The notes below the pieces were generated by a model, which had not been told where the DNA came from, made no database searches, and saw only the letters and a list, made by a program, of their open reading frames with translations. Below are positions 6,209 to 27,840 of a stretch of 27,840 nucleotides of DNA, piece by piece. The translations under genes and the position numbers were made by a program. The DNA is taken from IMG/VR virus record IMGVR_UViG_3300032173_000032, positions 1-27,840 of that record. One strand, given 5' to 3'. Each line of letters starts with the position of its first letter. The stretch's first letter is position 1. Source of the DNA: a virus.

Positions 6209-6209
6209 A

Positions 6210-6238
6210 TTGGCTCCTTTTTGTAAAGCTGCTATAGT
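6210..6238 (+). promoter_or_regulatory. Candidate sigma70-type promoter for the rightward gene
   Basis: In the 54-bp divergent gap there is TTGGCT (6210-6215), a 17-bp spacer, then TATAGT (6233-6238), preceded by TG one base upstream (6230-6231) as in an extended -10 site. The rightward ATG lies about 25 bp downstream with AGGA eight to eleven bases before it. The only rightward gene in the window needs its own promoter, which supports the call. The -35 part overlaps the Shine-Dalgarno of the leftward coiled-coil gene. A weaker opposing candidate (TTGTAT, 18-bp spacer, TACTAT) can be read on the minus strand. Neither is proven. Confidence 0.35.
6214..6219 (-). promoter_or_regulatory. Shine-Dalgarno that fixes the start at 6208
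   Basis: AAGGAG on the minus strand sits five bases before ATG 6208. It excludes the longer in-frame start at 6334, which would place 126 bases of coding sequence over the divergent gene's promoter and 5' end. Confidence 0.8.
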
Positions 6239-6262
6239 AGAGTTTCCAATAGCGAGGATACA

Positions 6263-6784
6263 ATGAAAATAAACCCATTGAAAGATGCCCGATGTTATTT
6301 GGGCGGGCCTATAGAGAACGACTCCACCCACCATAACTGGAGGACGGAGCCGACGAAGGTTCTAGTTGAGAGATTTGGGGTCAATCTATTTGACCCTTTT
6401 GCGGACTCTAAACAACAATGGGTTCCGACATTAACGGAAGCTCGTGACAGGTGCGACTTCGAGACGATGACCAGGATCGCTAAGGATTTTGTCTCCAAAG
6501 ACCTGATTATGGTCGAACGGTCAGATTTCTTGGTGTCATATTTGCCTAAAGGGGTGCCGACAACTGGCACTCACCATGAGATCATCTTTAGTAGTAACAA
6601 CAAAAAACCCACCCTACTGGTTTGTCCACAGGGCAAGGCGCAGGTTCCACTGTGGTATTATGGGTTTATTCCACATACCTGCATGTTCGGATCGTGGGAA
6701 GATTTGTACGTCTATCTACAAGAGGTAGCAGACTGGAAGCATACCGAGAATCGTCGGTGGCGGTATCGGTATGGCCTAATCTAG
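6263..6784 (+). CDS. Nucleoside 2-deoxyribosyltransferase-like protein
   Basis: This 173-residue protein looks like a member of the nucleoside 2-deoxyribosyltransferase superfamily, which moves or hydrolyses the deoxyribosyl group of nucleosides or nucleotides in salvage. It shows an N-terminal CYLGGPIEND (Tyr-Leu-x-Gly-Pro-Ile as in the family), LFDPFAD, a central acidic/hydrophobic strand KDLIMVERSDFLVSYLPKG, then TTGTHHEIIFS. In the last, the glutamate in G-T-x-x-E matches the family's catalytic Glu region. Length fits the family (about 140-180). It is the only rightward gene here and has a Shine-Dalgarno GAGGA. It ends convergently on the glycosyltransferase-like gene, both stops lying in one CTAG. 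It is probably an accessory (moron-type) metabolic gene for modified or salvaged nucleotides; the substrate cannot be told. Confidence 0.72.
   Translation: MKINPLKDARCYLGGPIENDSTHHNWRTEPTKVLVERFGVNLFDPFADSKQQWVPTLTEARDRCDFETMTRIAKDFVSKDLIMVERSDFLVSYLPKGVPTTGTHHEIIFSSNNKKPTLLVCPQGKAQVPLWYYGFIPHTCMFGSWEDLYVYLQEVADWKHTENRRWRYRYGLI
6781..6784. other. Palindromic CTAG serving as both stop codons of a convergent gene pair
   Basis: The rightward gene stops at TAG 6782-6784 and the leftward gene stops at TAG read from 6783 to 6781. The four-base palindrome CTAG supplies both stops with no intergenic DNA between the genes. No hairpin terminator separates them, so each transcript would be antisense to its neighbour. 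Confidence 0.9.
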
Positions 6785-8700: not shown

Positions 8701-9180
8701 TTATACAAAAGTTAATCGCCAATTCCAAGTGATCTGCATTTGCGCAGTCTTGGTTAAGTCCGGGAATGTCACCATGCTGTATAGATTCCCACTTGCCATT
8801 TGTAGTGCCATTTCGTTAAGAACCGCACCATTGGCTTCTGAGAAGGCAATTACAGATGTGAAAATCACTTGCGAAGGAATATTGGGATCAACTGAGGCCA
8901 CAACTGGTTTGCTGGCTTGGGTAATTCCAAACAAACCATTTCGACTGGTCGCCACAAATTTGGTGGAACCGTCTGCTGTGCCGCCGTCGCCAAATAACAT
9001 TCGATTGACGTAGAAGTTGAATCCATCACCGATGTCACGAGCCAAACAAGAAGCTAGGGCCTCTCGCCCTTTCGTCAATACAGTATTGGGGAATTCAACG
9101 ATCTTTCGTTCGCCGGACTCATAATCAATTATAGCTTGGACGAACCCGCAGGGTTTCAACCCGTCAGTAATTTCTATCAT
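8701..9180 (-). CDS. Tail-fibre/baseplate-associated structural protein
   Basis: This 159-residue protein has a layout common in large-phage tail proteins: an initial beta strand pair, FPNTVLTKGREALASCLARDIG (~30-51), FNFYVNRMLFGDGGT (~54-68), then ANGAVLNEMALQMASGNLYS (~118-137) and the C-terminal FPDLTKTAQMQITWNWRLTF. Such proteins are usually annotated only as virion structural proteins. ATG 9180 overlaps the TGA of the tail protein I gene (ATGA, 4 bp) and has AAGGAG upstream, so the two are translationally coupled. Position directly after tail protein I matches where P2-type tails place fibre-attachment genes. Confidence 0.72.
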   Translation of the reverse strand: MIEITDGLKPCGFVQAIIDYESGERKIVEFPNTVLTKGREALASCLARDIGDGFNFYVNRMLFGDGGTADGSTKFVATSRNGLFGITQASKPVVASVDPNIPSQVIFTSVIAFSEANGAVLNEMALQMASGNLYSMVTFPDLTKTAQMQITWNWRLTFV

Positions 9181-12100
9181 ATCTCTCCTTGTTCGGTAGT
9201 TCCGTCAGCATATTCAATGCTAAAGGCGATCCCCTCAGTTTGTTGAACGAATTCGTTAATTTGATTCCCTTCAGGCAGACTTAATCCAGTCACCGTCCCG
9301 TCTTGATCCACTCGATCAATCACAGGGCGTCCAGCCCGATCCAATGTACGAAAAGTATGTGCAGGCAAATTGAATTGCTGTCCAGCTATAGTTGCACCAT
9401 TCTTTGTGTATTTGTAAATAGTCACGTTGACGGATGTTCCACCTAAATTTAATGTTTTCCACCAATAAGGGTTGCCAGATAATGTAAAGGTCGTAAATCC
9501 TGATGGATTATCTCCGTCGATTTGATCCATGAAGTAGCTGTCAGACCCAATAACAACAATGAAATTCTCTCTGAATTCATTATTTTCAATGCCTTCGTCC
9601 ACAACAACAAGAGAGTTAGCACCGTTTTGGATTCCCAGACTGGACTCTAAATTGCCTGCCATCTGTAGCTTTAAGCCTCGATAATGTAGATAACCAACTT
9701 GTTTTTCGGCAACTTTTTGGTTGACCCGTAAGTTGGTGTTGTTGATGTCGCCTCGATTGTTGCCCATATTGTCATAATATTTGCCGATGTAATACTGGTC
9801 AGTTGTCCCATCTACAAATTCAAGAATTGGGTATTCTTCCAAGTTGATCTTTTGGAATGTATTATCCAGTCGTATTGCATTGCGAATTGGCAGCACCGAA
9901 CCACTCAAAGCAGTCACACGACCACGCTTGGTGACGTTAAACTCACCAACTGTACTTGTGACAATTGTTGTCAAGTTGCGAATCAAACTATAGGTTACAT
10001 TGGAAGCATTGTTGCTAGACAATGTGCCATCGTTGGTCAAAACCAAACTTCCATCTGGCTGTATGTCTTTAATCACATATGGCGTGCCGCTATAAGCCGG
10101 AATCAAAACTTTCCATGCAGTTATTGCAGTCCCTTGATCTACGTCAAACGTAGATTCAGTTCCCAGCAATCCAAAATCTTTAGTGGAATCTGAAATGACA
10201 AAGATGTTGTCTTGAGCAATGTTACACAATGTTCCATCCAACACCAAATTGTCGATGTCAAAAGTGAAAGCCTGATTGCTTGTCACCATCAAGTTTACAT
10301 TGATTACGCCAGTAACCGACGCCGCATTGCCCCTCGGATTGTCTACTGTGTATCCGCCAGAAAGAATAGAGGGAGCAAACACAGTCATTGTGGCGCTGCC
10401 ATCTAATGCCATGCCGATGCGATCCAATTGCAAGTCAGGACAGAACAATACAACTTCATCGTTGTACGCCGTGCCAGTGGTAGTTGTCACAGCAACCGTT
10501 TTGTCTGCCAGTTCATCTCTAAGAATACCAGTCGTCTCAACCAATCTCATGATTCGATTGAAGTATTGTTGGCCCTCACCCGCAATGACAAACTCGCTGC
10601 CCTGCATTGATACTAATGCTTCTACTTCTTCGAGTGGAGATTCAACGAATTCGTTGATGCCACCAATAAAGTTGAAGGTGTGCAATACGGCATGGAAAGG
10701 CGAAAACTCTCGAAGAACTTCTTTTGCTTCAAGAATGCGATCATCTGACAAGTTTTCAATTTCTAAGTCGATGTTGTAATTGCTGCTAATGCAGGCGGTG
10801 CATGGATCAACGAAGTTGCGGTCAATATCACAAGGCAACTTAGAGTTACGAATGCTGCCGTTGTACTCTTCCATGTTGTAGATGTTTTCACTATATGGGA
10901 ATTCAGTTCGTACTTTTCCGTATACCAAAAATTCATGGTATGGGTGGCGAGTTGGAATCACCAAGTCAAACATCGAATCATTTTCAGGGATTACTCGAAC
11001 ATTCCAATTCTTCAAAGGATAAACTTGATCTCGTTCATCTCGTTGGTCCATTAAAGGCAATGACCTAACATAGTTTTCTATTGCTTGTGTGGTCGGATCA
11101 ATAATTTCTGAATATTTGTACAATACTCTTATTTCATCGCCGTCAACAAGGTCGATTGGTTCAATAGACAGGCCACTTCCCGCCCATGTCATATAGGTGA
11201 TGCCATCACTGGTCAAAAATTCAACATAATCTGAACTTAACGCAACCCAAGTTAAACTGTCCGCAGGTCTTAGCCACAATTCAAAATTGTCGTAATCAAT
11301 AGGCAATGCGACCTTTTCAAGCTCAAATGTGTCGCTCGTTCCATCGAATTTGACCACTTCTTGCCATGTATAAGATGAAGTGATCTCCCACAATTGGGTC
11401 AATCCCATCATGGTGATAGCCGCATGTTCTAACGCTTCGGCCAACCCCTTCTTCGTTCCTTTCATTTTGTACAACGGAACGGCACGTTTGATTTGACCTC
11501 TCCAACGTGTAGGGTCGTCTGTCTTCAGTTTGAGATCAAACAAATTGGACAAATACGGGATCAAGGCTTCATGGATTGAGTTAGCGTCTTGGAGATCGAC
11601 AATCTGATTGCCCAGGTCTTCTAAAGTATTGAATCCCAAAGCAACTGCTTTGTTGAACTTGTCCAATACGTCAGGCGTGCGGTCGTTTTCTGACATGACC
11701 ATCTTGAACATATCGGGAGTGTACCGCTCAAGCAGCGTTTCGTATTTATCTGGATTGGTAAAGTGCGATGGAATACTGGTGGTGGTTTGTGTGTCGCCCT
11801 TTAGGGTGAACCTAGCATGTGCCGACAAGCTATCGCCAGCAATTAACGGCGTCCAAGTCCAACAGATGAAATAGTCACCTTCACGCATACCTTGTGGTTG
11901 CCATGTGTAGGCGTATTGACCAAAAACGCCATCTACCAAATCAACAAATGCGTTGTCCAGATCAGTGGTAAGCCACGCTGGGAAGCGATCATTGCCTACG
12001 ATGTGAACTGGAGATGCTTCGTTAAAGAAGAATGGGGAAACCGCCACATTGCTTTCTGCAATAGATCGAAGTCTTTTGGCCTCTGCTATGTTTGCATCAT

Positions 12101-12341
12101 TTGGCGTGGCGCAAGCTGTGGCCTCGGCAACTTCAGCGGCCTTCAGTTTTTCCAAGTCATAGGTTTTGTTTTGATACTCATTTAAGTTGCCGCTGGTGAA
12201 ATCACGTTCTACATAATAGATGACAAGACGATTGACTTTGTAAGGATTAGACGTGAAGCAGCCTTGAGCATCTGGTGTATGCAAAGTGAATACAATCGTG
12301 TCCGAAATAGACGGGTTGTCATTTATTGTCAGTGTCGCCAC
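9177..12341 (-). CDS. Tail protein I-like baseplate wedge protein with large C-terminal extension
   Basis: This 1,054-residue protein starts with GTG, with AAGGAG six bases upstream. Residues ~190-320 contain a recognisable tail protein I (P2 gpI) core: ERYTPDMFKMV, the segment TRWRGQIKRAVPLYKMKGTKKG and LAEALEHAA. This core bridges gpJ/gp6 wedges to the fibres. An N-terminal beta domain (1-185) precedes it. A long beta-rich C-terminal part (~330-1054) includes a cysteine cluster (CDIDRNFVDPCTAC) and is rich in Thr/Asn/Gly, suggesting several Ig- or fibre-like domains. P2 gpI is only about 180 residues, so this is greatly expanded and may combine wedge and fibre-anchor roles, as T4 gp7 (about 1,000 residues) does. 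The gene follows the gpJ/gp6 homologue, as in P2. Confidence 0.82.
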   Translation of the reverse strand: MATLTINDNPSISDTIVFTLHTPDAQGCFTSNPYKVNRLVIYYVERDFTSGNLNEYQNKTYDLEKLKAAEVAEATACATPNDANIAEAKRLRSIAESNVAVSPFFFNEASPVHIVGNDRFPAWLTTDLDNAFVDLVDGVFGQYAYTWQPQGMREGDYFICWTWTPLIAGDSLSAHARFTLKGDTQTTTSIPSHFTNPDKYETLLERYTPDMFKMVMSENDRTPDVLDKFNKAVALGFNTLEDLGNQIVDLQDANSIHEALIPYLSNLFDLKLKTDDPTRWRGQIKRAVPLYKMKGTKKGLAEALEHAAITMMGLTQLWEITSSYTWQEVVKFDGTSDTFELEKVALPIDYDNFELWLRPADSLTWVALSSDYVEFLTSDGITYMTWAGSGLSIEPIDLVDGDEIRVLYKYSEIIDPTTQAIENYVRSLPLMDQRDERDQVYPLKNWNVRVIPENDSMFDLVIPTRHPYHEFLVYGKVRTEFPYSENIYNMEEYNGSIRNSKLPCDIDRNFVDPCTACISSNYNIDLEIENLSDDRILEAKEVLREFSPFHAVLHTFNFIGGINEFVESPLEEVEALVSMQGSEFVIAGEGQQYFNRIMRLVETTGILRDELADKTVAVTTTTGTAYNDEVVLFCPDLQLDRIGMALDGSATMTVFAPSILSGGYTVDNPRGNAASVTGVINVNLMVTSNQAFTFDIDNLVLDGTLCNIAQDNIFVISDSTKDFGLLGTESTFDVDQGTAITAWKVLIPAYSGTPYVIKDIQPDGSLVLTNDGTLSSNNASNVTYSLIRNLTTIVTSTVGEFNVTKRGRVTALSGSVLPIRNAIRLDNTFQKINLEEYPILEFVDGTTDQYYIGKYYDNMGNNRGDINNTNLRVNQKVAEKQVGYLHYRGLKLQMAGNLESSLGIQNGANSLVVVDEGIENNEFRENFIVVIGSDSYFMDQIDGDNPSGFTTFTLSGNPYWWKTLNLGGTSVNVTIYKYTKNGATIAGQQFNLPAHTFRTLDRAGRPVIDRVDQDGTVTGLSLPEGNQINEFVQQTEGIAFSIEYADGTTEQGEI

Positions 12342-12351
12342 AACCTTCTCC

Positions 12352-13908
12352 TTACTCGTATGTGAATGTAATATCCGTTGTGTCGGGCCGGATAATTTCG
12401 TAGAACTTAGTCGTCACTCTATTCCCGCCATTAGCGGCATCATTCGTAATGAAATTGACTTCGTATCTCTGAATCTCTTTCAAGTCGGAAAGAGACTTAA
12501 TCATGTCTGAATCTCTTAGGGTCTGACCGTATTCCCAATTATTCAATGCAAAGAAAGAATCAAGTCTTCTTTGAATTTTGATTCTCAATTCATCTTCAAA
12601 CTTTCGGTAGAACCGATCCATCACAACATCAAGTCCTGTATCGACAACCACCACTTGCCCATCACGAATGCAGACGTGATCTGTAAACATTTTCAAGGAA
12701 TCTATGTAGTTCTCTAATTCTACCTTTAGCTCATTGCTTGCCTCTTGGAGTTTTTCGTTTCCATTCAATGCCAAAATATACAAGTCAACAATGTTGCCTG
12801 AGCAACCATAGTTTCTTAATACTGCTGTGGATTTGCCGATTTGACCCTGGTAAGCCGTAGCAAATTGATCGGTCAACGTCTTGTAATCTAATCCGGTGAC
12901 TGCTCGATTTTGTACTCTTACCCAAGCTGGCAATTTATTTCTGATGTCTTCAATCGTGTCGCCGTCATAACCAAATTCACCCTTGGTGTAGTTTCTCAAT
13001 CCAATAGGCACACTGAAAGATAGTCCGGGAACATTGACAATGGTTTGTTTTTCAATGGTTCCACTAACTACATTTCCAATTGAACCTCCACCTTTACGGT
13101 AGGAAATAAAAATCTTACTTCCTTGAGATGGAATCAATCCGGCTCGATTGTTTCCAAAAATCACAAATGCTTTATAATTGGAATTGAACTCCAGTCGGTA
13201 TTCTCGTCTTGGTTGAGAATCGGTGAAGTAATCAACTTGAGTCCATAATACTCCATCAACTTCCACTCTTACGGAATCGTAAATTACAGGAAATTCATTC
13301 AAGGCGATTGTCTGAGCTACAGTACCATTGCCACTTGATTCTGAAGAACGAGTAATTCCTTCTAGTCCAACAATACTTGCATTTACCACACCACCGGCAG
13401 GAATCACAATGTCTTGGTCGAATATTGGGTTATTGTCAGCATCAGCAGGGAACAACTCAATAGACAATTGTTTATTTCCAGTGCTGATTTTTAAGTCAAA
13501 CGGAGCAGGTATTACCACATCAGTTAAAACCGGATTGTTCAGACTCGCAGTCCATAGCGTTCTTGCAGCAATAGGCGGTTGTGGCTTAAAGCCAACTAGC
13601 TTTGCTAACCGAAATGCGTTTTCTGCTTCTGTAACGGTGTCAATGAATACTTCATTGGCAATTTGGTCCATTTTGAAAGACAGAGTATCAGCCAAAAATG
13701 CCCAATTTTCGATGAGCATAATGGCAAGCGACGACTCTACGAAGTCTGAGAATTCCTTGTCAAACTTCTGTCTTGTAAATTCAATCAGTCGGGTTTTCAT
13801 CGACCAGAAATCTTGATTTGTATAGTTCAAATTAAAGATGTTCGGAGTCGTGATAATCTGCGACTGAGTGTATGGTGTAATATCAAACGGACAGTTATTG
13901 GTCGCCAT
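12352..13908 (-). CDS. Baseplate wedge protein, gpJ/gp6-like
   Basis: This 518-residue protein matches the baseplate J family (P2 gpJ, T4 gp6), which forms the inner ring of wedges around the hub and holds the baseplate in its high-energy state. Visible family features are an N-terminal helical region with SSLAIMLIENWAFLADTLSF and AENAFRLAKLVGFKP (~60-115), central beta segments, and GEFGYDGDTIEDIRNKLPAWVRVQNRAVTGLDYKTLTDQF. In this family the last region is typically 'R...R.P..lR...RAVT..DYe.l'. It ends in a helical domain and the 'eIqryevnFitnd' strand. Length is close to the family norm. ATG 13908 overlaps the gp25-like gene's TAA by one base and has AGGGGG upstream. Confidence 0.93.
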   Translation of the reverse strand: MATNNCPFDITPYTQSQIITTPNIFNLNYTNQDFWSMKTRLIEFTRQKFDKEFSDFVESSLAIMLIENWAFLADTLSFKMDQIANEVFIDTVTEAENAFRLAKLVGFKPQPPIAARTLWTASLNNPVLTDVVIPAPFDLKISTGNKQLSIELFPADADNNPIFDQDIVIPAGGVVNASIVGLEGITRSSESSGNGTVAQTIALNEFPVIYDSVRVEVDGVLWTQVDYFTDSQPRREYRLEFNSNYKAFVIFGNNRAGLIPSQGSKIFISYRKGGGSIGNVVSGTIEKQTIVNVPGLSFSVPIGLRNYTKGEFGYDGDTIEDIRNKLPAWVRVQNRAVTGLDYKTLTDQFATAYQGQIGKSTAVLRNYGCSGNIVDLYILALNGNEKLQEASNELKVELENYIDSLKMFTDHVCIRDGQVVVVDTGLDVVMDRFYRKFEDELRIKIQRRLDSFFALNNWEYGQTLRDSDMIKSLSDLKEIQRYEVNFITNDAANGGNRVTTKFYEIIRPDTTDITFTYE

Positions 13909-14330
13909 TATGTTCCCCCTAGTGGCACTTCGAGCAGTAGTTCTTGCACTTCTTTAATGTTTTGTGGGTCTACGAAGATGATTCGGATGAACAAAATATG
14001 CTCAAGGTCTTGTTTTTGATCTGCTTTATTCAAGGAATCCTTGTCAACCTTCGAGTTAACCTCAATGTTTGTGACGGCAATTCGTGGTTCCCATCTCTTA
14101 ATTGAGTTGATTATCATGTTTTTTGCCTGAAGTCTTAGTGCAGCATCATTAGGTTCAAAAATCAACTTGCGCAGCGGAGTACCGAAATCCGGGTTCATCA
14201 CCCGTTCGCCTGGGTTGGTCAATAAAAGAACCAACATATCGGATTTAATCTGGTCAATCCCATCCTGAGAATAAAGAAAGCCCCTTGCATTCTTTACGAC
14301 GGGATATGGCACACCGAGGAATATTCTCAT
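13908..14330 (-). CDS. Baseplate wedge protein, gp25/gpW-like
   Basis: This 140-residue protein is a clear member of the gp25-like family (T4 gp25, P2 gpW, T6SS TssE), which links the wedge to the first sheath ring and helps trigger contraction. The hallmark is LLLTNPGERVMNPDFGTPLRKLIFEP (residues ~36-61): 'GER-x-x-x-P-x-x-G' followed by a downstream helix (ALRLQAKNMIINSIKRWEPR), then the paired strands with VTNIEV and LFIRIIFVD. Length matches the family (about 130). GGAG lies five bases before the ATG. The presence of this protein is the strongest single sign that the tail is contractile. Confidence 0.95.
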   Translation of the reverse strand: MRIFLGVPYPVVKNARGFLYSQDGIDQIKSDMLVLLLTNPGERVMNPDFGTPLRKLIFEPNDAALRLQAKNMIINSIKRWEPRIAVTNIEVNSKVDKDSLNKADQKQDLEHILFIRIIFVDPQNIKEVQELLLEVPLGGT

Positions 14331-14340
14331 TTAATCTCCA

Positions 14341-16515
14341 TTAGCATGGCGGGCATTTCATGAACGGTGCCAACTGGAAGATTGACAATTGCTGTGCCTT
14401 TCCAGATGTACTGGCAAACACACGGTCACTAATCCTCACGCAGCCAGTACAGAAGTCGTAAACAATAACGGCTCCGAAGCACGGGTCTGGACCACCACAA
14501 CCGCCGCAACCCGGAGGAGGACTACAATCCTCTCCAGCCAGCAGCAATATGACTTCCTTGGCATAAAACAGATGGAGTTTATCGGTGATGTTGAGGTACA
14601 CATCTTTGGTATATACGAGGTTGGTTCTGGTTACTATCTCCATCAAATCTGATGGATTTTTCTCTTCGTCGCCCACAATAGTAATGTGGTTGTCGTAAGT
14701 TGAAACAATGTAGTTTCCACCCACACGCAGGAACACAAGACCTGGACCCGATGGGGCCTCCTGATACCTGTGAATGTGTGGGCCACGTTCTTCGTTGTCC
14801 TTTTGAGGACAGAATATTTGAATGTATTGTTGCTTTGTCTCTTCTTGGCTATCATCATCATGATACATCATCTCCAGGCCATACCCTGTTCGGATTTTAA
14901 CGAAAGCCTTCTTCGCCTTCGGAATCGGCACGCCACCTTCCATACGGCATGGGGCGCATTGCTCATTCGTCTCGTCCACCATATCAATTGTGTGATTACT
15001 GGTGCTTTTTAGGTGAATGCCACGTTCAGAACCGGCAATGTTTGGCGGGCAACCAGGGCAATCCTTCTGGGACTCTGTGTGATCGTTTAACTCGATTTTG
15101 TTGCCAGTGGCAGTCAAAATCTTGATATAGTTGTCTTTGCCACGCAATTTGGCCCCATCATCGCCTGGAGGACTTTCCACATCACTCATCTCAATGAGAT
15201 GGCCCGTGGCAGACTTCCAATACGTTCGGCCCACATAATGGTCATTACAACCAAAATCAAACTCTCTATCCCAGGTAGGTTCTCCTGATGGCTCCTCAAC
15301 AGAATCGTCCATGACGAACGTATGTCCGCTAATAGACATAATCTGAATGCCGGTTTGAGGTAAATCACAAGTATTGTTCTGTGGAGTTGGCGGTCCCTTG
15401 TATGGACGACATTCTTGGCTATGCTTGAAGAATGGATTTGCTCCAACCTGAGACTTATAGTGTTTCGTATTCGGCGCACCAGTAGAAGGATGTCCACCAA
15501 TAATCTTGCTGTTGCTCTTTTTGCCCTCGCAAGGAACCTCTTCTTTCTTCTTTCCTTGTTTTGGCGTTATGTCTGGTGTGTTGGCTATCGCTTGAGCAAG
15601 CGGGTTGACCGTGTCACCCAGAGCCAGCGGCAGACTTGTAAACACAAATCCGTCCTTCAGTTTGTCTTCTTGAGAGCTATTGGCAGCGTCTTCTACGCAA
15701 CTTGTTTCTCCATCTGGAACTCCGCACTGTGGGTGCGACCACTGACCTGCATAATGCAGGTGATCGTCTTTAAGCATGATCCAGTTTCCGCAACTGGACA
15801 TGATTTCAAACCGCTTCCATTTTCTATTGCACTTAGGATCGCCATCCACCATCTTGATGTAATGCTTCTCTGGCGTCTTAATGCCAAAGATGTTTGGATA
15901 GGTGATTAACTTCTGTGCTTCAGGATTGTCAGCAAAGTCAACAAGAGATGACAGATCGAACCCGTTATAGTTTTCTGTATTCCACGGTGGAAACACCTGA
16001 GAACCATCATTGGGTCCGACTAAGTATCCTTTTCTTTTACCTTCCCAAATTTTATAGTATTCTTCAATGTTATATCCCCAATTGTGTCCTCCATCGGGGC
16101 CACGGTTTCTATGCCATGTTGTGCCAATATAATATGGTGACGCACGGTTGCCGTTTTCAAATATGATGCAAAGAGTACATCCAGCAGGAGGAACCCAAGT
16201 TGCACCACAATCATCAAAGCCTCCTAAGTTAGAAACCGGACTGGCCCACGGTAACTTTTTAATGGTCATTTTTGGATCATGAAACAAAGGAGAAAAGAAA
16301 CGAACTCGACTCTGCTTCCAAATGTCAATTGTTTCTATACACAAAGCTGTGTACATGCCAAATTGCATTTCTGCTTGTTCCATAACAGAAGCATTAGCAA
16401 CAAGCTCTTGTCTAGCAACAGATTTCATGTTGTAAGCTACGCCGCCAATTTGATTCTCAAGCGAAGCAATCCGACGCTCTAGCAATTCTACATATTCTTG
16501 TCTTGCTACCGACAT
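14341..16515 (-). CDS. Baseplate spike protein, gp5/gpV-like, with cysteine-rich tip
   Basis: This 724-residue protein starts with a coiled coil holding two copies of SVARQE (2-7 and 32-37). An OB-fold follows at ~50-135 (TIDIWKQSRVRFF ... KKLPWASPVSN ... GCTLCIIFENGN ... PYYIGTTWH), as in T4 gp5 and P2 gpV. No lysozyme domain is visible. The middle and C-terminal parts repeat a 'GHxIxMxD' strand motif (SGHTFVMDDS, TGHLIEMSDV, TGNKIELNDH, SNHTIDMVDE), expected of the trimeric beta-helix needle. The last ~65 residues hold eight cysteines (CGGCGG, CFG, CTGC, KCPPC). These could bind metal at the tip, replacing the separate PAAR cap not seen in this window (inference). It lies directly downstream of the hub gene, as gpV follows gpD in P2. 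Confidence 0.9.
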   Translation of the reverse strand: MSVARQEYVELLERRIASLENQIGGVAYNMKSVARQELVANASVMEQAEMQFGMYTALCIETIDIWKQSRVRFFSPLFHDPKMTIKKLPWASPVSNLGGFDDCGATWVPPAGCTLCIIFENGNRASPYYIGTTWHRNRGPDGGHNWGYNIEEYYKIWEGKRKGYLVGPNDGSQVFPPWNTENYNGFDLSSLVDFADNPEAQKLITYPNIFGIKTPEKHYIKMVDGDPKCNRKWKRFEIMSSCGNWIMLKDDHLHYAGQWSHPQCGVPDGETSCVEDAANSSQEDKLKDGFVFTSLPLALGDTVNPLAQAIANTPDITPKQGKKKEEVPCEGKKSNSKIIGGHPSTGAPNTKHYKSQVGANPFFKHSQECRPYKGPPTPQNNTCDLPQTGIQIMSISGHTFVMDDSVEEPSGEPTWDREFDFGCNDHYVGRTYWKSATGHLIEMSDVESPPGDDGAKLRGKDNYIKILTATGNKIELNDHTESQKDCPGCPPNIAGSERGIHLKSTSNHTIDMVDETNEQCAPCRMEGGVPIPKAKKAFVKIRTGYGLEMMYHDDDSQEETKQQYIQIFCPQKDNEERGPHIHRYQEAPSGPGLVFLRVGGNYIVSTYDNHITIVGDEEKNPSDLMEIVTRTNLVYTKDVYLNITDKLHLFYAKEVILLLAGEDCSPPPGCGGCGGPDPCFGAVIVYDFCTGCVRISDRVFASTSGKAQQLSIFQLAPFMKCPPC

Positions 16516-17994: not shown

Positions 17995-18321
17995 TTATCC
18001 AAATAATGCGTCAGGAATTTTAATGTTGAGTCCAGCTTTGAAGTCAAATACATCTTTGATGTTATTGGCTTCCATAATTTTCCACCACAAATCAACTGTT
18101 CCATAAGCTGTGTGTGAAACCAAATCAGGTCGGTACTCCGTGCCAGATGTAACGATGTAATATTTGTCGCCCGGTTTGATTTTTTCTTTTTCTTTTTTGT
18201 AAATTGGAAAGGTGAGAATTTTATTCTCTGTGTAGTAAATTACAGGCATGTCAGCATAGCGACTTGTGATTGGCACAAATCTTCTAGTATCAATTCTTGT
18301 GGATGTCGTATAATTTGCCAT
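17995..18321 (-). CDS. LysM-type baseplate protein, gp53/gpX-like
   Basis: This 108-residue protein has the C-terminal pattern YYIVTSGTEYRPDLVSHTAY (~55-74) and LWWKIMEANNI (~79-89). It then has FKAGLNIKIPDALF, as in T4 gp53 and other LysM-type baseplate proteins. In P2 the matching gene is X, and in eCIS the LysM protein next to VgrG. These proteins clamp the hub to wedges or the tail tube. A strong AGGAGG precedes the ATG by four bases. It lies between the gpU-position gene and the hub gene, which agrees with that assignment. Confidence 0.88.
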   Translation of the reverse strand: MANYTTSTRIDTRRFVPITSRYADMPVIYYTENKILTFPIYKKEKEKIKPGDKYYIVTSGTEYRPDLVSHTAYGTVDLWWKIMEANNIKDVFDFKAGLNIKIPDALFG

Positions 18322-18870: not shown

Positions 18871-21800
18871 TTATCCTTTAGGTGTTCCTACGTTTAGGAT
18901 TGCTTTGCCTGGAGTTTGAGTTACTAAACCAACTGGATTTTTGAAAAAGTTAGCTGGTTTGTGTACCACATCGTGAGTTGAAGTGTCACCCTTAACTCCA
19001 CCACCACTTGTAATAGGAGTGCTTGTCGGCTTCAAAGCTGTCAAAACTTGCTGGAATAATGTTATCAATGTATCCAATTTCGCATTGTGGTCCCCTGCTT
19101 CAGATGCAATAGTACCCAATTCAGGAGATGTGATCTCCGTTTTGGTTGGCGACGTTGCTGCTTTGTCGCCAGCAATTGCCGATTGTATGTCTGGAATTGC
19201 TGGAGACGTTTGTGCAATAGGTCGAACACTTGCTGGCGATTCTCCGGCTCCCGCCACAGACATCGGCTCAACACTCATTGGCCCCTGAGCAATCATGCCA
19301 CTAGCAGATGTTGGCTGGTTGACCAATCTGCTCAAAGCCGATAGAGCATCTGTTTCAGATGTTCCCATCTGAGGAGCGCCAATTGAAGGCATCATTCCCT
19401 GGTTTGCAATTTGTTGCGCACTGGCTGCATTGGCCAACTTGTAGCCAATAGGCTGGTCGCCTTGTGCTTCCCTTGCTTGACGCTCCATAGCTTTAGCCAT
19501 AGCTTGCTCAGTCATCAATCCTTGACCATGAGCTTCACCACGAGAGCTACCAACCGAACCACGAACGCTTCCACCTTGCGATTGCATTTTCGCACCGCCA
19601 GTTTCAAATCCGGCTTGTTCTCTTCTGATTCGACGAGCTTCGTTTCTTTCTTTAAGACGATCTGTGGATGGATTGCGACGACGGCGTTCACGAGCTTCAT
19701 CGCCCAAAGCTCTTTGCATCGGCGTATCTCTCATGCTTTCGGCGGCACTACGCATATCAGCATTGCCAGCAGCAGGTTTTGGATTTACCGACTGAATGGC
19801 TGGCTTTAGAGGATTGTTCTTTGCTTGAATACTGCGATGTATAGCGAACGAAGTATTCTTTGCTTGAGCATTCTTTATTGCTTGAGCTTGCTGCGAGCTA
19901 TTGAATTTCTTATTGGACTCTTCAAATCCACTATCTTTAGCAACCTGAGCGGCACTTGGCATCAATGTAGACTTAGCTTCGTCTCGCTGAATCTCAATCA
20001 TGTCGTTTTGAGCCTTGAAATTCAATCTGTCTCGAACAAACAAACCGTCGCCACTCAGGGCCTCAACGACCATTTCGCTCAGAGACTTTGCCATTGTTTG
20101 TTGAGCAATCGCCTGATCTCTCAACAATTGTGTTTCAATATTCTTGTCACTCGGATTGAGTCCAGCACCTGCGCCAGTTGCAGCACTGCCTACACCAGTT
20201 GTGGCAGAAGTCATGTCCTTCATGCCTACATTACCAGTTGTGGCAGTCATGTCCTTCATGGCAGCAGCAAACATCGCCATCTTCTGAATCGGCATCTTAT
20301 CCAATGCAGAGAAGTCTATGTTAGAGTTTGAAATGGACTTCATGGCGATGTCCATAGCACCCAAGACCTCTTCGACCTTGTTAAGTGCCTGAACCATTCC
20401 GTCAAGTTGTTTCACAACTTCATCAATTTCAGAAGATGGTGGCAACAACTTCATTGGTTGAAGAATGCCGTTATTGATGGCATTCGCTATGCCCATAAAG
20501 GCATATCCAAACATTGAAGCCTTCCAGCTTGCCATCATCATCCAGAATGGATTGATCGAAAACTTATTCATTCTCTCTGATACATAAGCAATAATTTGTT
20601 CAGCGGCATCAAGTCCCTTTGACATATTGCTCATTTGGCTCATGCCAGCAGTGATCTCTTCTGCCGTAGGCAGATTGTTCATGATTGGATACAAGATTCC
20701 GTCACGCACGAATGATGTGATGGAATGGAACCATGCAGCAAACATATCTGTATTAGCAGCCAACATTTGAATGGGCGAACTCTTCAAGCAACTGCCAGCG
20801 TCTAACGGAATGAACAGGGCCGACAAGTTAGAAATTATGGTTGGCAACATAGTTATAACACGACTCATGGCAGACAGAATTTGAGCCGCCATCATGATGG
20901 TGCGAGGTTCTGGTAATACTTCTAAAATTGGAGATATAATTCCACTTACCATAAATTCAGCTACGCTTCTAAACCAATCGCCGAACAACTGAGTTTTTCC
21001 TTCTAGCTTTTCTTTCGCTGTGTCTTCCATCGACATGCCAGAGTCAATCAAAGGAATGAGTCCGTTTGCCATGCTGTTGATGACAACAGGAATCAAAGAC
21101 ACAATGCGACTCATAGCAGACAGAATTTGAGCCGCCATCATAATGGTGCGAGGTTCTGGCAACACTTCTAAAATTGGATTTACAATGCCGTCTCTCATAA
21201 AGATGGCAATACTCTTGAACCACAGGGCAAATTCATCCTTGTAGACCATAATCTTGTCAATTGGGAAGTCCGTGTCGAAAAAGCGTTCATCTGGGCTGCT
21301 CATGAGACTCATGGCACCGGACAGATTCTTAATCAAAGGCACAATGTTGGCGGCGATATTGGCCATAGCCGTGATCGTTTTCGCTGCACCAGAGATGTCA
21401 ACTCCAGCCATTTCCTTGTTGACCGGATTTACAATTCCATCTCTCATGAATTCTGCAATAGCATGGAACCAAATGCTAAAGTCGTCTTTACTTTTCAGTA
21501 TTTTAGCAATTGGCGAGTCTGAGAAGAAGCTAGAAGAATCTGTGCCAAGTGCAATTGCAGCAGCCAAATTCTTAATCATCGGGACAATGTTGGCGGCAAT
21601 CTTAGCCATTGCATTGACAATATCTGCCGCAGCTAAAATTTGTGATGGGTCTTTGAATTTATCATTAACTGGGATGACAATCCCAGTGTTAACAAATTCT
21701 CCAATCGCAATAAACCATTTCTTGAACTGGTCCTTGTTTTTAATGATCTTCTCAATCGGGGCATCTTCCCAGAATGATTTTGCTTCCATCAATCCGATCA

Positions 21801-24800
21801 CTGATGCCAGATTTTCTAGTGTTACTTTTGTTCCGCACAACAGTCTTGCTAAGGCTAGTACAATTGTTGAGGCATTCTTTAATTGTGCATCATCAGGAAA
21901 TACGTTATTGATTGGATGAACAATGCCCGTCTTCACAAAATCAGCGATCTGTCCGAAGTAATCGGCGAATTTGGTTTTGTTTTCAATAATCTTGGTGATC
22001 GGCGACTTGGTGAAGAATCCATCGTCCATCAATCCGACCATGCTTGCCAAAGAACCGATGGCCTTGCTGGTCGAATCCAGAACAACAGCCAACATGGTCA
22101 TTTTCTTGGCGGCTTCTTTCAGGCCAGTCGTATCCTTGATCTTTGTCATCGAAGCGACAATCGTATTCACGAAGTCACTAACGGAATCGAAGAATCCGTT
22201 GAACTGAGGAATGGCCGACTTAATTTTGTCAATAGGCGATGCGGTGAAGAATCCACCCTGGGTCAGCGGTGCAATCTTTTCGCTCATGATTGAAATTGAC
22301 GGCATGGCCGCATTCAAAATCATTGCCATTGCATTAAGACTTTTGGCTGCATTCTTCAATTCTTTAGTGTCGCCCATGCTGCCACGAACCTTATCGACAA
22401 TCGTTCTGATAAGGTCAACCATAGCTGGGAAGAACACTTCCATTTGGCCCTTGGCTTTTGTCATCTGCTTGATCGGAGAACTACTGAACCAGCCGCCCTG
22501 TGTCAAAGGCACGATCTTCTCAGACAAGGTGTTTAACACCTTGGAGACAAGTTCAATAATAGTTGATACATCCGTCAGGCTCTTAATCATTGACTTGGCA
22601 GAGCCAACATCTATTGCTTTTTTCATGTTGGCTGCAACGTCAACAATTGTGCTTACAAAAGATTGCACAGGCAGAGATAGCACTTTAAGTGCAGCAACTC
22701 CACCCAACATCAATAGTGCAACAAACGGAGCATATACAGAAAGCAATCCTAACTTGCTCAATCTAGGAATGACACCAATTATTTGATCGGCTACTGCCCC
22801 GCAAGATGCAATAACATTGGCAACGCCATTCGCCATTTCAGCGGCTTGTTTAGGATTAAGCGAAGAACCTATTGATTTAGATATACCAACAATTGTGCTT
22901 ACAAAATATCGTACTGGCCAAGATAGCAATTCAAGTGCGATGACTCCACCCAACATCAATAGTGCAACAAACGGAGCAAGTACAGAAAGCAATCCTAACT
23001 TGCTCAATCTAGGAATGACACCAATTATTTGATCGGCTACTGCTCCACAAGATGCAATAACATTAGCAATGCCATTTGCCATTTCAGAGGCTTGTTTAGG
23101 ATTAAGCGAATGCCCTATTGATTTAGATATACCAACAATTGTGCTTACAAAATATCGTACTGGCCAAGATAGCACTTTAAGTGCAGAAACTCCATTCCAC
23201 ATCAATATTGCAGCATATGGAGCATATCCAGATAGCAATCCCAGCTTGCTCAAATTCTTAACCGAACCAGTTATAGCATCGGATACTTTTCCTGCTGATT
23301 CTAATATTGAAGTCAATCCTTCAACAATTTCTTTTCCATGAGCAGGACTTACACCTGAGTCGATTAAATCACCAGCGATTTTAAGGATCGTATTTGCCAT
23401 ATGCACCACGGCAGGTGTCAAGAACTGAAGTGCTTTAGAACCAAGATACATGGCACCAGTAATCACCCACGCCATAGCTGAAAATCCAGCTAGTAATCCT
23501 AGCACACCTAAAGATGTAGCGCTTTTGATAACCGACCAAGAAATACTTGCAGCACTTGATAGAACTGAAGCAAGCGATTCAGATGTTGCTTTTGCTTCTT
23601 CTGCTCCAACTGATCCTTTCGTTAGAATTTTAGCCATTCCAATTATGGCAACACTCAAAGCAACAACTGCTGGCGTTAAAGCTACTAATGCTACTGCTCC
23701 TAACATTGCCAATGGAACCATTGCCCAAAACAATCCGCTAGTTACAGCAAATCCCAAAACTGCCAATGCAGCGCCCATTCCAATTACAGATAGAGAAATT
23801 TCAGCAGCGGCACCAATTACATCTGATAATGCTTCAGCTACTTTGCCTGCTTCTGATGGGTCAATGACTTTCTTCATTACATATTGAGTTATTTTTATTA
23901 CGCCCACTGCTAATGCGGCAATTGCTGGAGCTAAAATCAACAATGCTATTGCTCCTGTTGCCATTAGAGGACCGGCTACTGCCGCAATAGGTGAACCCAG
24001 AAGACTTCCCAAGGCTACCAATCCTACTGATGCTCCGATAATTGCCAGAGAGATGAATCCTGCCGCTAATATCAATTCACCAATGTTCATAGCCGCTTTA
24101 GCAGCAGTACCAGAGTCCATGCCAAATGCACCCATTATTTTTTGACTTATCCAAACAACGCCTGCTGCCAAAGCGGTGATTGCAGGAGCCATGACTAGAA
24201 GTGCTATAGCACCTTTAATCATGTCGTCTTTCATGCCTTTTGAACGCTCAACAAATTTTCCTAGAGCTTCCAATCCAAAAGATGCACCAATGATAGCACC
24301 GGCTATTGCGCCAGCAGCGACAATCAATCCAGCGACTTGCATGGCAACCTTAACTGCTGTCGAGGCATCTAATCCAGCTACGCTCATGATGATTTGGCCC
24401 ATCTTGACTAAGGCCACGCCCAACAACATGATGACGCCACCAACTAGCACAAGTGCCAAAGCTGCTTTGGCTACTTCTTGAACAATCGCTCCAGGATTAT
24501 CAACTATTTTCTTCCAAGTGGGATTTGTTTTAAGTTCATCAAGACACTGTACAAAAGCCTTGGCTCCTGCTGCCATAGCGCCAGCAACTCCAGCCACAGA
24601 GACGATCACTCCAGCAATTTCGGCTACTGAGCCAATGCTCAATCCCAGCTTAGATAAAATAAGTCCAGTCATTGCCACAACCGCTGCTCCGAGCAAAACG
24701 ATAGCGGGGCCAATCAGCATTAGTGCTGCTGCGGCTTCAAGAACTTGTGGATAAGATGATTTGGCTTTTTCTGTGAAGCCTTTCATTTTGCTAGAATTCA

Positions 24801-27800
24801 GAGCTTCAAAGGCAACAAAACCAGCAGCGGCAATTGCCCCGCCAGCAAGAGCAACTGCTCCAACGACTGCTGCTGTTTCAAGTACAGTCTTGATGTCTAG
24901 TTTGAAAGCCTTCATGATCTTGGATGCCAAGAATACAATAGCCGCTCCAAGAGCAACAACTCCAAGACCTAAAATTGCTACTCCAACAGCAGCCTTGGCC
25001 ATTTCTTTTCCAGAACTCATCATTCCAGCAATGTCGAATCCTTCTGTGCTTGGCGTAGCAGGCATAGGATCAGACTTTGCGGACATCTTTGTTTGACGGC
25101 CCACTAAGGACTGTTGAGCATCTTGAACTTTGTCGCCGACCTTTTGTGACTTGATGTCATTCTTTTGGAGCTTAATATCTCTTTTTTGCACTCTCGTTTC
25201 AGCTTCTTGCATCCTTCTTGCGGTACGTTCTTGTACTTTTTGTTCTGGAGACATAGAAGCAGCCTTGGCTTGGCCTGCTGCCTTATCTGCTGCCCACTTT
25301 GATTTATCTGGAGACGCTGCGGCCTTGGCTTGTCCCGCTGCTTTGTCAGAAACTACTTTTGATTTGTCCGTGCAAACGCATTGGTGAATGGCTTTAAGTT
25401 CATCCAACATTTTTGGGAAGATGTCTTCATCTTTTTTGATTGAATCAAGAGCTTTGTCTAATGCTGAATCGGCTTTAGGTTTAGCTTCTGTTTTTGGCTG
25501 AAGATTTCCAGCCATTTTGTTTTCAGGTGGTTTTGCTGCATCTTCTTTATCTCTAAAGCCCAAAGAACCCTTAATGAGTCCCCAAAGACTTTTCTCCTCT
25601 GTCTTAATGTAACCTTTTTCGTTAGGCATTCTTCCAGATTCATCCGGCACCAGTTTTTTCGAGAGCGTGCCTTTGATTACTTCTAAAAAGCCACCCTTTA
25701 CGTCCATTTCTTTCAACACACGCTTGAATGTGTCTAATTTGGTCAGAAGACTCATGCTTAATAAAGCTAAACCGCCAGTGATGCCAGCGATTGCAGCACC
25801 CATTACAGCAATTTTGCCAATCAAACTATTGAAAAACATTGAAAAAGTTTTATTTGTATAATTTCTAATGTTATCGTTGATTTCACTCAAAGATTGCTGC
25901 ATTTCAGTCAGTGGATCAAGTTGTGACTTTTGAGCGGTCGCAAGTTCCTGTTCTCCTTTGCTGATTTGTGAAGTCAATTCCCGCATTGCCGCAGGGTCTT
26001 TTAATGCCCGCTCAATTTCAGTGGAGTCAATCTTGATTTCCTGCTTGCCAGCCTTCTTTAGACCGGCATTGACACTATCCATAGCACTCTGGATCGCTCC
26101 TCGTGCTACATCGGCTTCGCTAGTCCAGGTTTGGCCCAGAGCATTCAAATCAGCCTCAAACTCGCCCCGGCGTTTGCCGAAGGTGGCGAGGGCCTGATTC
26201 ATGTCTTTAGCACCCTTGGCCGCTTCATCCAAAGCTGTCAATACTTCCAGATTCTTGCTGGTCTTCAGTCTACGCTCATCTTCCATGAGCGTAGCTTTCT
26301 CTTCCAGCGTCAAGTTCTGTTGACGTTTCTTATTGATGTCGGCCAGTCGCTCTGCCATCCCCTTACCGGCTTCATTCAGAGCCTCATATTGAGATCGCAA
26401 TTCCCCAAGCTCGATTCCAAATGTCGATTTTAACTGTATGTTCAGTCGCATCTTGGCATCATCTGACAATTGGTCAATGGCATCCATGCTTTCAACGCCA
26501 AAGCGTTTCAGCATATTGTCCATGCCCTTTGCCATGTCCTTAATGCCAGCTTTGGACCGAAGGATTGTGCCATTCATCAATTCATCAATTCGACCAACGC
26601 TGCTTGCGGCAGATAACAAGAATCCTCTAGTTTGATTTGATGCTTCAAGAATCAAGTGGGACGAACTGCTCATCGCCTTCAGCAAAGGCTGCATTTGGCT
26701 TTCAATACCCAGCTTCTTGGCATTAGCACCAATTTCAATGACGTTTTTTGCGGCTGTTGCAGATAAAGTCGCAGCATTTCTTAAAGAGTCAATAAATTCT
26801 TTGCTTCCTTTGACAACCGTAGCCAATTCATCGCCGGTCATTCCGGTGTTGCGAGCAACTTCTCGCATACCTCGACCCATATCGGCAAGTTGGCCCACTG
26901 ACATGCGACCGGCTTTGTTCCAACTTACAAATTCATCGCCGAGACTTCCAGCTTCCATTCCCAATTGCCTTTCAGTGTTCAATTGGGTTTTGACAATATT
27001 GGAGGCAACCTTTAAGTCTTTAATTCCATGCTTTAGTGCTTTGACGTATGACTTTTGAAATACATCACGATCAACACCAGTTTGCTTAGTAGTCGAACCA
27101 ATGTCTTCAAACGACCTCATTAGGCTATCTGATTCTTTTGTCGCACCGGCTATTTCGTAACTGATGGATCGCATTTCTTGAACAATTTTTCTTTCTTTGT
27201 CAATAACTCCATTGAAGATTTCACCTAAAGTGTTGAAGCCTAATAGGTGCTTTTCAACCATTGCCATTTCATTGGTGATTTGATGGACGAATTGACTCAC
27301 GATGTACAAGTCGTCTGCAATTGGCAAACCGCCCATTGTTCTTGTTTTATCTCTGCCGCCCTTGCCGCCCTTGCCGCCCTTGCCGCCACCTGGGGCTGCT
27401 CCTCCACCGCCTGTGCTGCCGCCCGATCCTCCACCGCCTGCTGCCCCACCGTCATCTGGCGCAGGAGATGGAGTTGAAGGGGGGCTTATTCCCTTGATGC
27501 AACTGCACAAATCACGAATAGCCTTTTCAACATAGATGTCGTGAGTGTAGCCAGAACCCTTCTTGGCGAAAGTCTTGTAAAGACCTTCGCTGCTCTTAGA
27601 CATGGCCTTTTCTTCTTTGCTAACAAAAGGCTTTTCTTTCTTTTCCTTTTTCGGCTGGCCCTTGGATTCAGCTTTTTTAGCCAGTCTTTTTTGAACAAGT
27701 TCTTTTAAGCTATCAACAACATCGGACAAGAAGCCTTTCTGCTCCTGCATATCTTTGGCAAAGTCCTTTGTGTATTGCTCAAGCAATTCACGCACTTTCC

Positions 27801-27804
27801 CCAT
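18871..27804 (-). CDS. Tail tape-measure protein (giant, possibly partial at right edge)
   Basis: This 2,977-residue protein sets tail length. It opens with lysine-rich coiled coil (1-100), then a Cys-x-Cys (100-102) and a glycine-rich linker (119-150). Long helical regions with heptads follow (160-660), then one hydrophobic helix (~665-690). A basic, repetitive hinge with DKAAGQAKAA occurs at ~815-850. From ~930 to ~2490 there are tandem ~82-residue helical units, hydrophobic at first (alanine/glycine/leucine-rich) and later amphipathic. The C-terminal ~480 residues are low-complexity, glutamine- and serine-rich. ATG 27804 is the first visible start and has only a weak AGGG upstream. The frame stays open to the right edge (12 more codons), so the true start may lie outside. 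At ~0.15 nm per residue it predicts a tail near 450 nm. Confidence 0.95.
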   Translation of the reverse strand: MGKVRELLEQYTKDFAKDMQEQKGFLSDVVDSLKELVQKRLAKKAESKGQPKKEKKEKPFVSKEEKAMSKSSEGLYKTFAKKGSGYTHDIYVEKAIRDLCSCIKGISPPSTPSPAPDDGGAAGGGGSGGSTGGGGAAPGGGKGGKGGKGGRDKTRTMGGLPIADDLYIVSQFVHQITNEMAMVEKHLLGFNTLGEIFNGVIDKERKIVQEMRSISYEIAGATKESDSLMRSFEDIGSTTKQTGVDRDVFQKSYVKALKHGIKDLKVASNIVKTQLNTERQLGMEAGSLGDEFVSWNKAGRMSVGQLADMGRGMREVARNTGMTGDELATVVKGSKEFIDSLRNAATLSATAAKNVIEIGANAKKLGIESQMQPLLKAMSSSSHLILEASNQTRGFLLSAASSVGRIDELMNGTILRSKAGIKDMAKGMDNMLKRFGVESMDAIDQLSDDAKMRLNIQLKSTFGIELGELRSQYEALNEAGKGMAERLADINKKRQQNLTLEEKATLMEDERRLKTSKNLEVLTALDEAAKGAKDMNQALATFGKRRGEFEADLNALGQTWTSEADVARGAIQSAMDSVNAGLKKAGKQEIKIDSTEIERALKDPAAMRELTSQISKGEQELATAQKSQLDPLTEMQQSLSEINDNIRNYTNKTFSMFFNSLIGKIAVMGAAIAGITGGLALLSMSLLTKLDTFKRVLKEMDVKGGFLEVIKGTLSKKLVPDESGRMPNEKGYIKTEEKSLWGLIKGSLGFRDKEDAAKPPENKMAGNLQPKTEAKPKADSALDKALDSIKKDEDIFPKMLDELKAIHQCVCTDKSKVVSDKAAGQAKAAASPDKSKWAADKAAGQAKAASMSPEQKVQERTARRMQEAETRVQKRDIKLQKNDIKSQKVGDKVQDAQQSLVGRQTKMSAKSDPMPATPSTEGFDIAGMMSSGKEMAKAAVGVAILGLGVVALGAAIVFLASKIMKAFKLDIKTVLETAAVVGAVALAGGAIAAAGFVAFEALNSSKMKGFTEKAKSSYPQVLEAAAALMLIGPAIVLLGAAVVAMTGLILSKLGLSIGSVAEIAGVIVSVAGVAGAMAAGAKAFVQCLDELKTNPTWKKIVDNPGAIVQEVAKAALALVLVGGVIMLLGVALVKMGQIIMSVAGLDASTAVKVAMQVAGLIVAAGAIAGAIIGASFGLEALGKFVERSKGMKDDMIKGAIALLVMAPAITALAAGVVWISQKIMGAFGMDSGTAAKAAMNIGELILAAGFISLAIIGASVGLVALGSLLGSPIAAVAGPLMATGAIALLILAPAIAALAVGVIKITQYVMKKVIDPSEAGKVAEALSDVIGAAAEISLSVIGMGAALAVLGFAVTSGLFWAMVPLAMLGAVALVALTPAVVALSVAIIGMAKILTKGSVGAEEAKATSESLASVLSSAASISWSVIKSATSLGVLGLLAGFSAMAWVITGAMYLGSKALQFLTPAVVHMANTILKIAGDLIDSGVSPAHGKEIVEGLTSILESAGKVSDAITGSVKNLSKLGLLSGYAPYAAILMWNGVSALKVLSWPVRYFVSTIVGISKSIGHSLNPKQASEMANGIANVIASCGAVADQIIGVIPRLSKLGLLSVLAPFVALLMLGGVIALELLSWPVRYFVSTIVGISKSIGSSLNPKQAAEMANGVANVIASCGAVADQIIGVIPRLSKLGLLSVYAPFVALLMLGGVAALKVLSLPVQSFVSTIVDVAANMKKAIDVGSAKSMIKSLTDVSTIIELVSKVLNTLSEKIVPLTQGGWFSSSPIKQMTKAKGQMEVFFPAMVDLIRTIVDKVRGSMGDTKELKNAAKSLNAMAMILNAAMPSISIMSEKIAPLTQGGFFTASPIDKIKSAIPQFNGFFDSVSDFVNTIVASMTKIKDTTGLKEAAKKMTMLAVVLDSTSKAIGSLASMVGLMDDGFFTKSPITKIIENKTKFADYFGQIADFVKTGIVHPINNVFPDDAQLKNASTIVLALARLLCGTKVTLENLASVIGLMEAKSFWEDAPIEKIIKNKDQFKKWFIAIGEFVNTGIVIPVNDKFKDPSQILAAADIVNAMAKIAANIVPMIKNLAAAIALGTDSSSFFSDSPIAKILKSKDDFSIWFHAIAEFMRDGIVNPVNKEMAGVDISGAAKTITAMANIAANIVPLIKNLSGAMSLMSSPDERFFDTDFPIDKIMVYKDEFALWFKSIAIFMRDGIVNPILEVLPEPRTIMMAAQILSAMSRIVSLIPVVINSMANGLIPLIDSGMSMEDTAKEKLEGKTQLFGDWFRSVAEFMVSGIISPILEVLPEPRTIMMAAQILSAMSRVITMLPTIISNLSALFIPLDAGSCLKSSPIQMLAANTDMFAAWFHSITSFVRDGILYPIMNNLPTAEEITAGMSQMSNMSKGLDAAEQIIAYVSERMNKFSINPFWMMMASWKASMFGYAFMGIANAINNGILQPMKLLPPSSEIDEVVKQLDGMVQALNKVEEVLGAMDIAMKSISNSNIDFSALDKMPIQKMAMFAAAMKDMTATTGNVGMKDMTSATTGVGSAATGAGAGLNPSDKNIETQLLRDQAIAQQTMAKSLSEMVVEALSGDGLFVRDRLNFKAQNDMIEIQRDEAKSTLMPSAAQVAKDSGFEESNKKFNSSQQAQAIKNAQAKNTSFAIHRSIQAKNNPLKPAIQSVNPKPAAGNADMRSAAESMRDTPMQRALGDEARERRRRNPSTDRLKERNEARRIRREQAGFETGGAKMQSQGGSVRGSVGSSRGEAHGQGLMTEQAMAKAMERQAREAQGDQPIGYKLANAASAQQIANQGMMPSIGAPQMGTSETDALSALSRLVNQPTSASGMIAQGPMSVEPMSVAGAGESPASVRPIAQTSPAIPDIQSAIAGDKAATSPTKTEITSPELGTIASEAGDHNAKLDTLITLFQQVLTALKPTSTPITSGGGVKGDTSTHDVVHKPANFFKNPVGLVTQTPGKAILNVGTPKG
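20875..21190 (-). repeat. Second local duplication with 246-bp period
   Basis: A block beginning cagaatttgagccgcc occurs at 20875 and again at 21121, again exactly 246 bp apart, with about 60 bases nearly identical. Both encode PEPRTIMMAAQILSAMSR. This is an independent occurrence of the same 82-codon period and supports unit-wise growth of the tape measure. Confidence 0.85.
22649..23386 (-). repeat. Three tandem 246-bp repeats (82 codons) in the tape measure
   Basis: The copies begin at 22649, 22895 and 23141, exactly 246 bp apart. The first two are almost identical; the third is similar in its left part and then decays. They encode the 'MANGxANVIASCGAVADQ' units of the tape measure. The exact in-frame period and high nucleotide identity indicate a recent duplication in a gene whose length controls tail length. 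Confidence 0.88.
27357..27450 (-). repeat. Glycine-rich linker region of the tape measure
   Basis: The stretch encodes a glycine-rich segment at residues 119-150, including GGK repeated three times from a 9-bp tandem repeat. It follows a proline-rich SPPSTPSPAP. It is a flexible linker between the N-terminal coiled coil and the main body. The G/C run produces a long open plus-strand shadow frame that is proline-rich and not a gene. Confidence 0.85.
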
Positions 27805-27840
27805 ATCGCCCTGTGGTTCGCCTTCTTTTTTGGATTCAAC

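Follow-up and report, generated by a model that had tools for sequence, protein, structure and literature searches.

In this study, we analysed a 27,840-base IMG/VR virus record, called the window here, in which the minus-strand open reading frame (ORF) at 18871-27804 most plausibly encodes the tape measure protein (TMP) of a huge, uncultured phage whose baseplate is of the T4/P2 type. It is likely that this contractile-type huge phage has a TMP whose repeat array is changed unit by unit, setting the length of the tail. Read from sequence, the family has repeated units of two classes, shared ends, 10-33 units per array and whole-unit differences between close relatives.

The probable TMP gene and its baseplate neighbours

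The reading frame of the TMP runs on, still open, to the edge of the window. In L090, L091, and L092, the relatives closest to the window, the TMP starts with MATAIDNLGRK..., ~39 residues upstream of the first in-window codon. Because these relatives start further upstream, the full TMP probably has ~3,028 aa, and its true start probably lies ~39 codons past the window end rather than at the ATG at 27804. The initial annotation had given the protein 2,977 residues. One ORF of 2977 codons at 27804-18871 (-) was confirmed, though the upstream start of the relatives had been missed. The TMP gene is directly followed by a series of baseplate genes.

18871..27804 (-), TMP gene, 2977 codons counted from the first ATG inside the window
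25720..27300 (-), N-terminal TMP domain (ORF aa ~169-695), conserved in all relatives of 929-4983 aa
18871..19260 (-), conserved C-terminal TMP segment (ORF aa 2849-2977)
17995..18321 (-), baseplate wedge-like protein (phrog_7145)
14341..16515 (-), baseplate spike/OB-domain protein (PF04717 Phage_base_V)
13908..14330 (-), gp25 baseplate wedge protein (PF04965)
12352..13908 (-), gp6/gpJ-like baseplate wedge protein (phrog_219)
9177..12341 (-), gpI-like tail protein (PF09684 Tail_P2_I)

The window thus holds a gp25/gp6(J)/gpI-type baseplate, which is a mark of contractile-tailed phages. The adjoining wedge-, spike-, gp25-, gp6- and gpI-like genes support the earlier reading of the ORF as the tape measure of a contractile tail. 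Sheath and tube genes were found in the relatives G032, G034, and G038, and a sheath was present in 3 of 16 relative records. In the majority of relative records, several searches detected no sheath, even on contigs as long as 340 and 381 kb; these records may be incomplete, or the sheath may be divergent. A sheath candidate in G042, a single weak local match (E 0.008) to a sensitive profile, was not accepted. The phage is probably contractile-tailed, and this call rests mainly on the baseplate genes because a sheath gene would lie outside the window and none was detected in most relative records, some of which exceed 300 kb.

Other features were noted in the window. A 33-bp tandem repeat of 14 copies (11-residue unit) at 1-463 lies inside a minus-strand ORF that leaves the low end of the window and likely encodes a surface protein such as a tail fibre. 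Two proteins with PKD domains, encoded downstream of the baseplate set (2167-4437 and 4437-5504), are probably fibres or adhesins. An HNH endonuclease gene at 1498-2154 (phrog_10822, 4e-59), located between fibre-like genes, possibly encodes a homing endonuclease. The sole plus-strand ORF (6263-6784) gave a weak nucleoside deoxyribosyltransferase match and overlaps the ORF at 5504-6334 (-) by ~70 bases.

The repeat array and its units

Self-similarity over TMP residues 930-2490 peaked at lag 82, 8.8 SD over other lags. The best ungapped self-match diagonal, also at lag 82, scored 560, and none of 20 block-shuffled controls scored above 79. No off-diagonal pairs were listed in a self-BLAST of the TMP, and the repeat was seen by diagonal scoring instead. 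Two unit HMMs, one per class, were trained iteratively to count units. They placed 19 units (9 class-1 and 10 class-2) at ORF residues 969-2522 with a spacing of 76-91 residues, which confirms the repeat that the initial annotation had described as a regular helical period of 78-86 residues at 930-2490. The classes succeed each other along the array, class 1 and then class 2, and class-2 units follow the pattern FF..SPI..I......F..WF..I..F...GI..P.

22588..24900 (-), class-1 array part, 9 hydrophobic units (ORF aa 969-1739)
20239..22587 (-), class-2 array part, 10 less hydrophobic units (ORF aa 1740-2522)
22641..23253 (-), tandem duplication in the array (TRF: 2.5 copies, 88%), repeating every 246 bp exactly
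20851..21189 (-), second, partial lag-246 similarity

Positions 22921-23194 match 22675-22948 over 274 nt with 91.6% identity at a lag of exactly 246, with exact runs of 63, 61, and 36. The stretch at 22641-23253 is solidly a recent tandem DNA duplication. The initial annotation had placed near-identical 246-bp duplications at two sites. This held for the first site; at the second, 21097-21189 and 20851-20943 match over 93 nt with 86% identity, which is not near-identical.

Much of the array is strongly hydrophobic; in the class-1 region, GRAVY values per 100 residues range from about +0.4 to +1.6. Transmembrane-like segments numbered 20 in the window TMP and 45 in the relative L099, compared with 0 in lambda gpH, 0 in phage G gp183, and 4 in P23-45 gp96. 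Some arrayless relatives were also hydrophobic. Since arrayless L112 and L105 have 10 and 13 such segments, hydrophobicity reaches beyond the arrays. AlphaFold gave all-helix models in which each unit has roughly two helices of about 35-40 residues separated by breaks, at a confidence too low to reveal the fold of a unit (pLDDT 47.8 and 43.5). A Foldseek search with the pLDDT 47.8 model returned no match, and PDB matches for the TMP were dismissed as arising from its glycine-rich linker. In the pooled autocorrelation, a strong heptad-like lag of 7 was accompanied by a weak half-unit signal at 38-42 and the unit signal at 82. The unit may be a hydrophobic two-helix block of ~83 residues, a fold predicted at low confidence.

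Apparent gain and loss of whole units among relatives

Relatives were gathered by scans with gp6 and with the N-domain, followed by locus extension. This gave 53 related TMP frames, the shortest of 929 aa and the longest of at least 4,983 aa, some of them cut by contig ends. The N-domain is common to the relatives and the C-end to most of them. Array-bearing members hold 10-33 units, and the largest members are L110 (4750 aa) and L109 (at least 4983 aa). Frames of 929-1932 aa are mostly without an array, except for L093, which has 10 units in 1820 aa, and L091, which is cut off. In an N-domain tree of 44 rows, array-bearing tapes fell in one group, though support was not strong (86/81), and arrayless L105 (1925 aa) was nested inside this group at 99/80. 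The position of L105 suggests that the array was gained once and lost at least once. Three members of the group (L094, L154, and L179) have one recognisable unit each. Homologues with the N-domain were found in none of 84,980 prokaryote genomes, and among 50,697 phage records LR756511 (595 kb) alone matched the tape.

Across 24 arrays, 450 unit spacings had a mean of 83.3 residues (SD 3.9, range 74-100), and array length rose with the number of unit intervals with a slope of 83.0 (R2 0.9988). The non-array part measured 1,046-1,800 aa in 18 of 22 complete TMPs. Because four TMPs (L109, L110, L118, and L144) have 2,421-3,391 aa outside the array, the long C-terminal linker is, judged from these lengths, a second route to a longer tape. 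In L109, L110, and L144, whose tapes have 4.4-5.0 kaa, 1.4-2.2 kaa of non-array sequence precedes the C-end, and in L109 and L110 this stretch carries a second hydrophobic patch. In L118 (532-kb contig), tape residues ~3400-4440, past the array, form a linker that is rich in proline and glutamine and contains several short tandem repeats at the DNA level.

Alignments of close pairs were examined for gaps. Large gaps within arrays corresponded to one or two units (86, 91, 88, 76, 176, 82, 84, and 91 residues), some being broken into two pieces by the aligner, and gaps outside the array were of any size. Unit-to-unit comparison showed that the orthologous units flanking new units were 56-97% identical. 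As an example, window units 1-4, 5-6, and 10-19 match units 1-4, 6-7, and 12-21 of L090 one-to-one, a pattern of orthologous units with insertions of single ones. Window units 8 and 9 are 73% identical to each other, as against 40% at best to any L090 unit. L116 and L117 are 99.8% identical save for one 91-aa unit, which has 96% DNA identity to the neighbouring unit. This single-unit difference might reflect an assembly error. Two other length differences were rejected as unit effects. The 411-aa difference between L109 and L110 (5 x 82) lies in the linker past the array, with 20 units in each, and the 161-aa difference between L112 and L113, both arrayless, is the sum of 31 and 130. When further arrays closely related to those of the window, L116 and L101 were scanned for, no additional pair differing in unit number turned up.

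Short-read assemblies may miscount near-identical units. Since five records (L101, L102, L103, L132, and L133) agree on 23 units, assembly can yield reproducible unit counts. In L099, a period of exactly 246 bp is repeated in tandem 11.3 times. One contig, L002, is near-identical (99.9% in the tape) and starts within near-identical units, as if assembly had broken at the repeat. These results favour the unit-wise change of the tape proposed in the initial annotation, as the arrays of relatives appear to gain or lose whole units of about 83 aa (R2 0.999; L116/L117). The accompanying expectation that lengths differ by multiples of 82 was not supported, as units vary from 74 to 100 aa and linkers add unquantised differences.

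Predicted tail length, alternative readings and known tapes

A conserved N-domain (~500 aa) and C-end (~130 aa) flank the array of ~83-residue, probably two-helix units. Recombination between similar neighbours would duplicate or delete whole units, so that the tape would change by one unit at a time. According to established TMP biology, a helical tape, extended inside the tail tube, would set tube length, and each unit should add about 12 nm (83 x 0.15). Inside the tube, hydrophobic class-1 units might pack together, and once ejected they may enter the membrane of the host. Bacillus phage G has a 2893-aa tape and a 450-nm contractile tail (PMC8570332). With this yardstick, ~3,028 aa correspond to ~470 nm, and with 0.15 nm per residue to ~454 nm. 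In TP901-1, 127 aa of the tape do not count to length, and deletion of Tm2-3 cuts the tail from 118 to 107.6 nm, so hydrophobic segments count (PMC5099701). A tail of ~450-470 nm is a fair prediction for the window phage, and an upper estimate because terminal domains and linkers may not count. The ~447 nm proposed earlier is close to this range, but such a length is not singular for a contractile tail, since that of phage G equals it.

It had also been proposed that each unit matches three tube rings. Ring height is 3.8-4.3 nm (PMC9022992), and 83.3 aa x 0.15 nm gives 12.5 nm, which falls within three rings. A lock of units to the tube lattice as length quanta of three rings (about 12 nm) is nevertheless very improbable. 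Unit lengths spread over 74-100 residues, and the pooled autocorrelation showed nothing notable at 27-28 or 54-56 residues, where one ring would leave a mark of ~27. Deviations in array length scaled as independent errors (scaled residual SD 3.80 vs unit SD 3.85), accumulating without register keeping. We give equally little credence to the view that this long, repeat-rich ORF encodes some other structural protein or a secreted one, with the true tape elsewhere in the genome. The window TMP itself had no match in protein family libraries, and no tail-assembly chaperone genes were recognised among the upstream ORFs of relatives, the window stopping at the TMP gene. Against this view, the gene keeps its place before the baseplate genes, PF10145 PhageMin_Tail matches 2 of 22 homologous N-domains (best 5.4e-6), and homologues that have no array and are as long as ordinary tapes (929-1932 aa) share its ends.

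The hydrophobicity of the units raises another reading, in which the array acts chiefly as a module of the ejected tape for entering the membrane or forming a channel. Its helices would fold as hairpins, each unit would span less than 12 nm, and the tail would be much shorter than 450 nm. The abundance of transmembrane-like segments relative to lambda gpH, phage G and P23-45, the two predicted helices per unit with breaks, and the weak half-unit self-similarity are consistent with such a module. We regard it as unlikely, since the strong heptad-like lag is typical of helical tapes, class-2 units are far less hydrophobic, hydrophobic segments count toward length in TP901-1 (PMC5099701), and copy number is apparently free, whereas a channel would have a fixed size. 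Slightly more doubtful is a tape built as a chain of membrane-active two-helix modules, with the unit count setting both tail length and the number of hairpins delivered at ejection. If true, the tape would be a modular ruler that can be expanded and penetrates membranes, and cultured phages would offer nothing comparable. The hydrophobic unit also poses the question of how such a tape is kept packed inside the tube and what role it plays at the membrane of the host.

Repeated tapes are already known (PMC3271669, PMC5099701). Tapes with aromatic-marked repeats of 11 aa (or 11-11-18) were described by Belcaid 2011 (PMC3271669) and in TP901-1, where removing tape repeats shortens the tail (PMC5099701). 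They resemble the window family in having repeated units with a history of duplication and loss, but the family's unit is ~83 aa, two-helix and hydrophobic, and the [FW]-x10 or 11-11-18 pattern (seven marks) was found in none of the 53 TMPs. A literature search of limited breadth found no precedent for an array of 10-33 such units. Phage G gp183 (PMC8570332) comes from a huge phage, is of near-equal length (2893 aa) and also has baseplate genes after the tape gene. Unlike the window TMP, it lacks the 82-residue period (top lags 14, 11, and 10) and is hydrophilic throughout with no transmembrane-like segment; the unit HMMs gave no convincing match to it. Thermus phage P23-45 gp96 (PMC10770324) is a giant 5002-aa tape with a membrane domain, near the size of L110 and L109. 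It differs in that the tail is non-contractile, the tape is fused to an RNA polymerase, and autocorrelation detected no array. The uncultured huge phage LR756511 is similar in gp6 (46% identical), gp25 (37%) and a 1641-aa frame with an N-domain alignable at ~30%, but it is without the array. Tape evolution has so far been seen mostly through small 11-aa units. Here, one phage lineage has tapes of ~1,000 to ~5,000 residues with related ends, a countable array and a near-identical pair one unit apart. If confirmed, it would offer a natural ladder for tail length per unit, and its largest members would be predicted to have contractile tails of ~700 nm or more, exceeding that of phage G.
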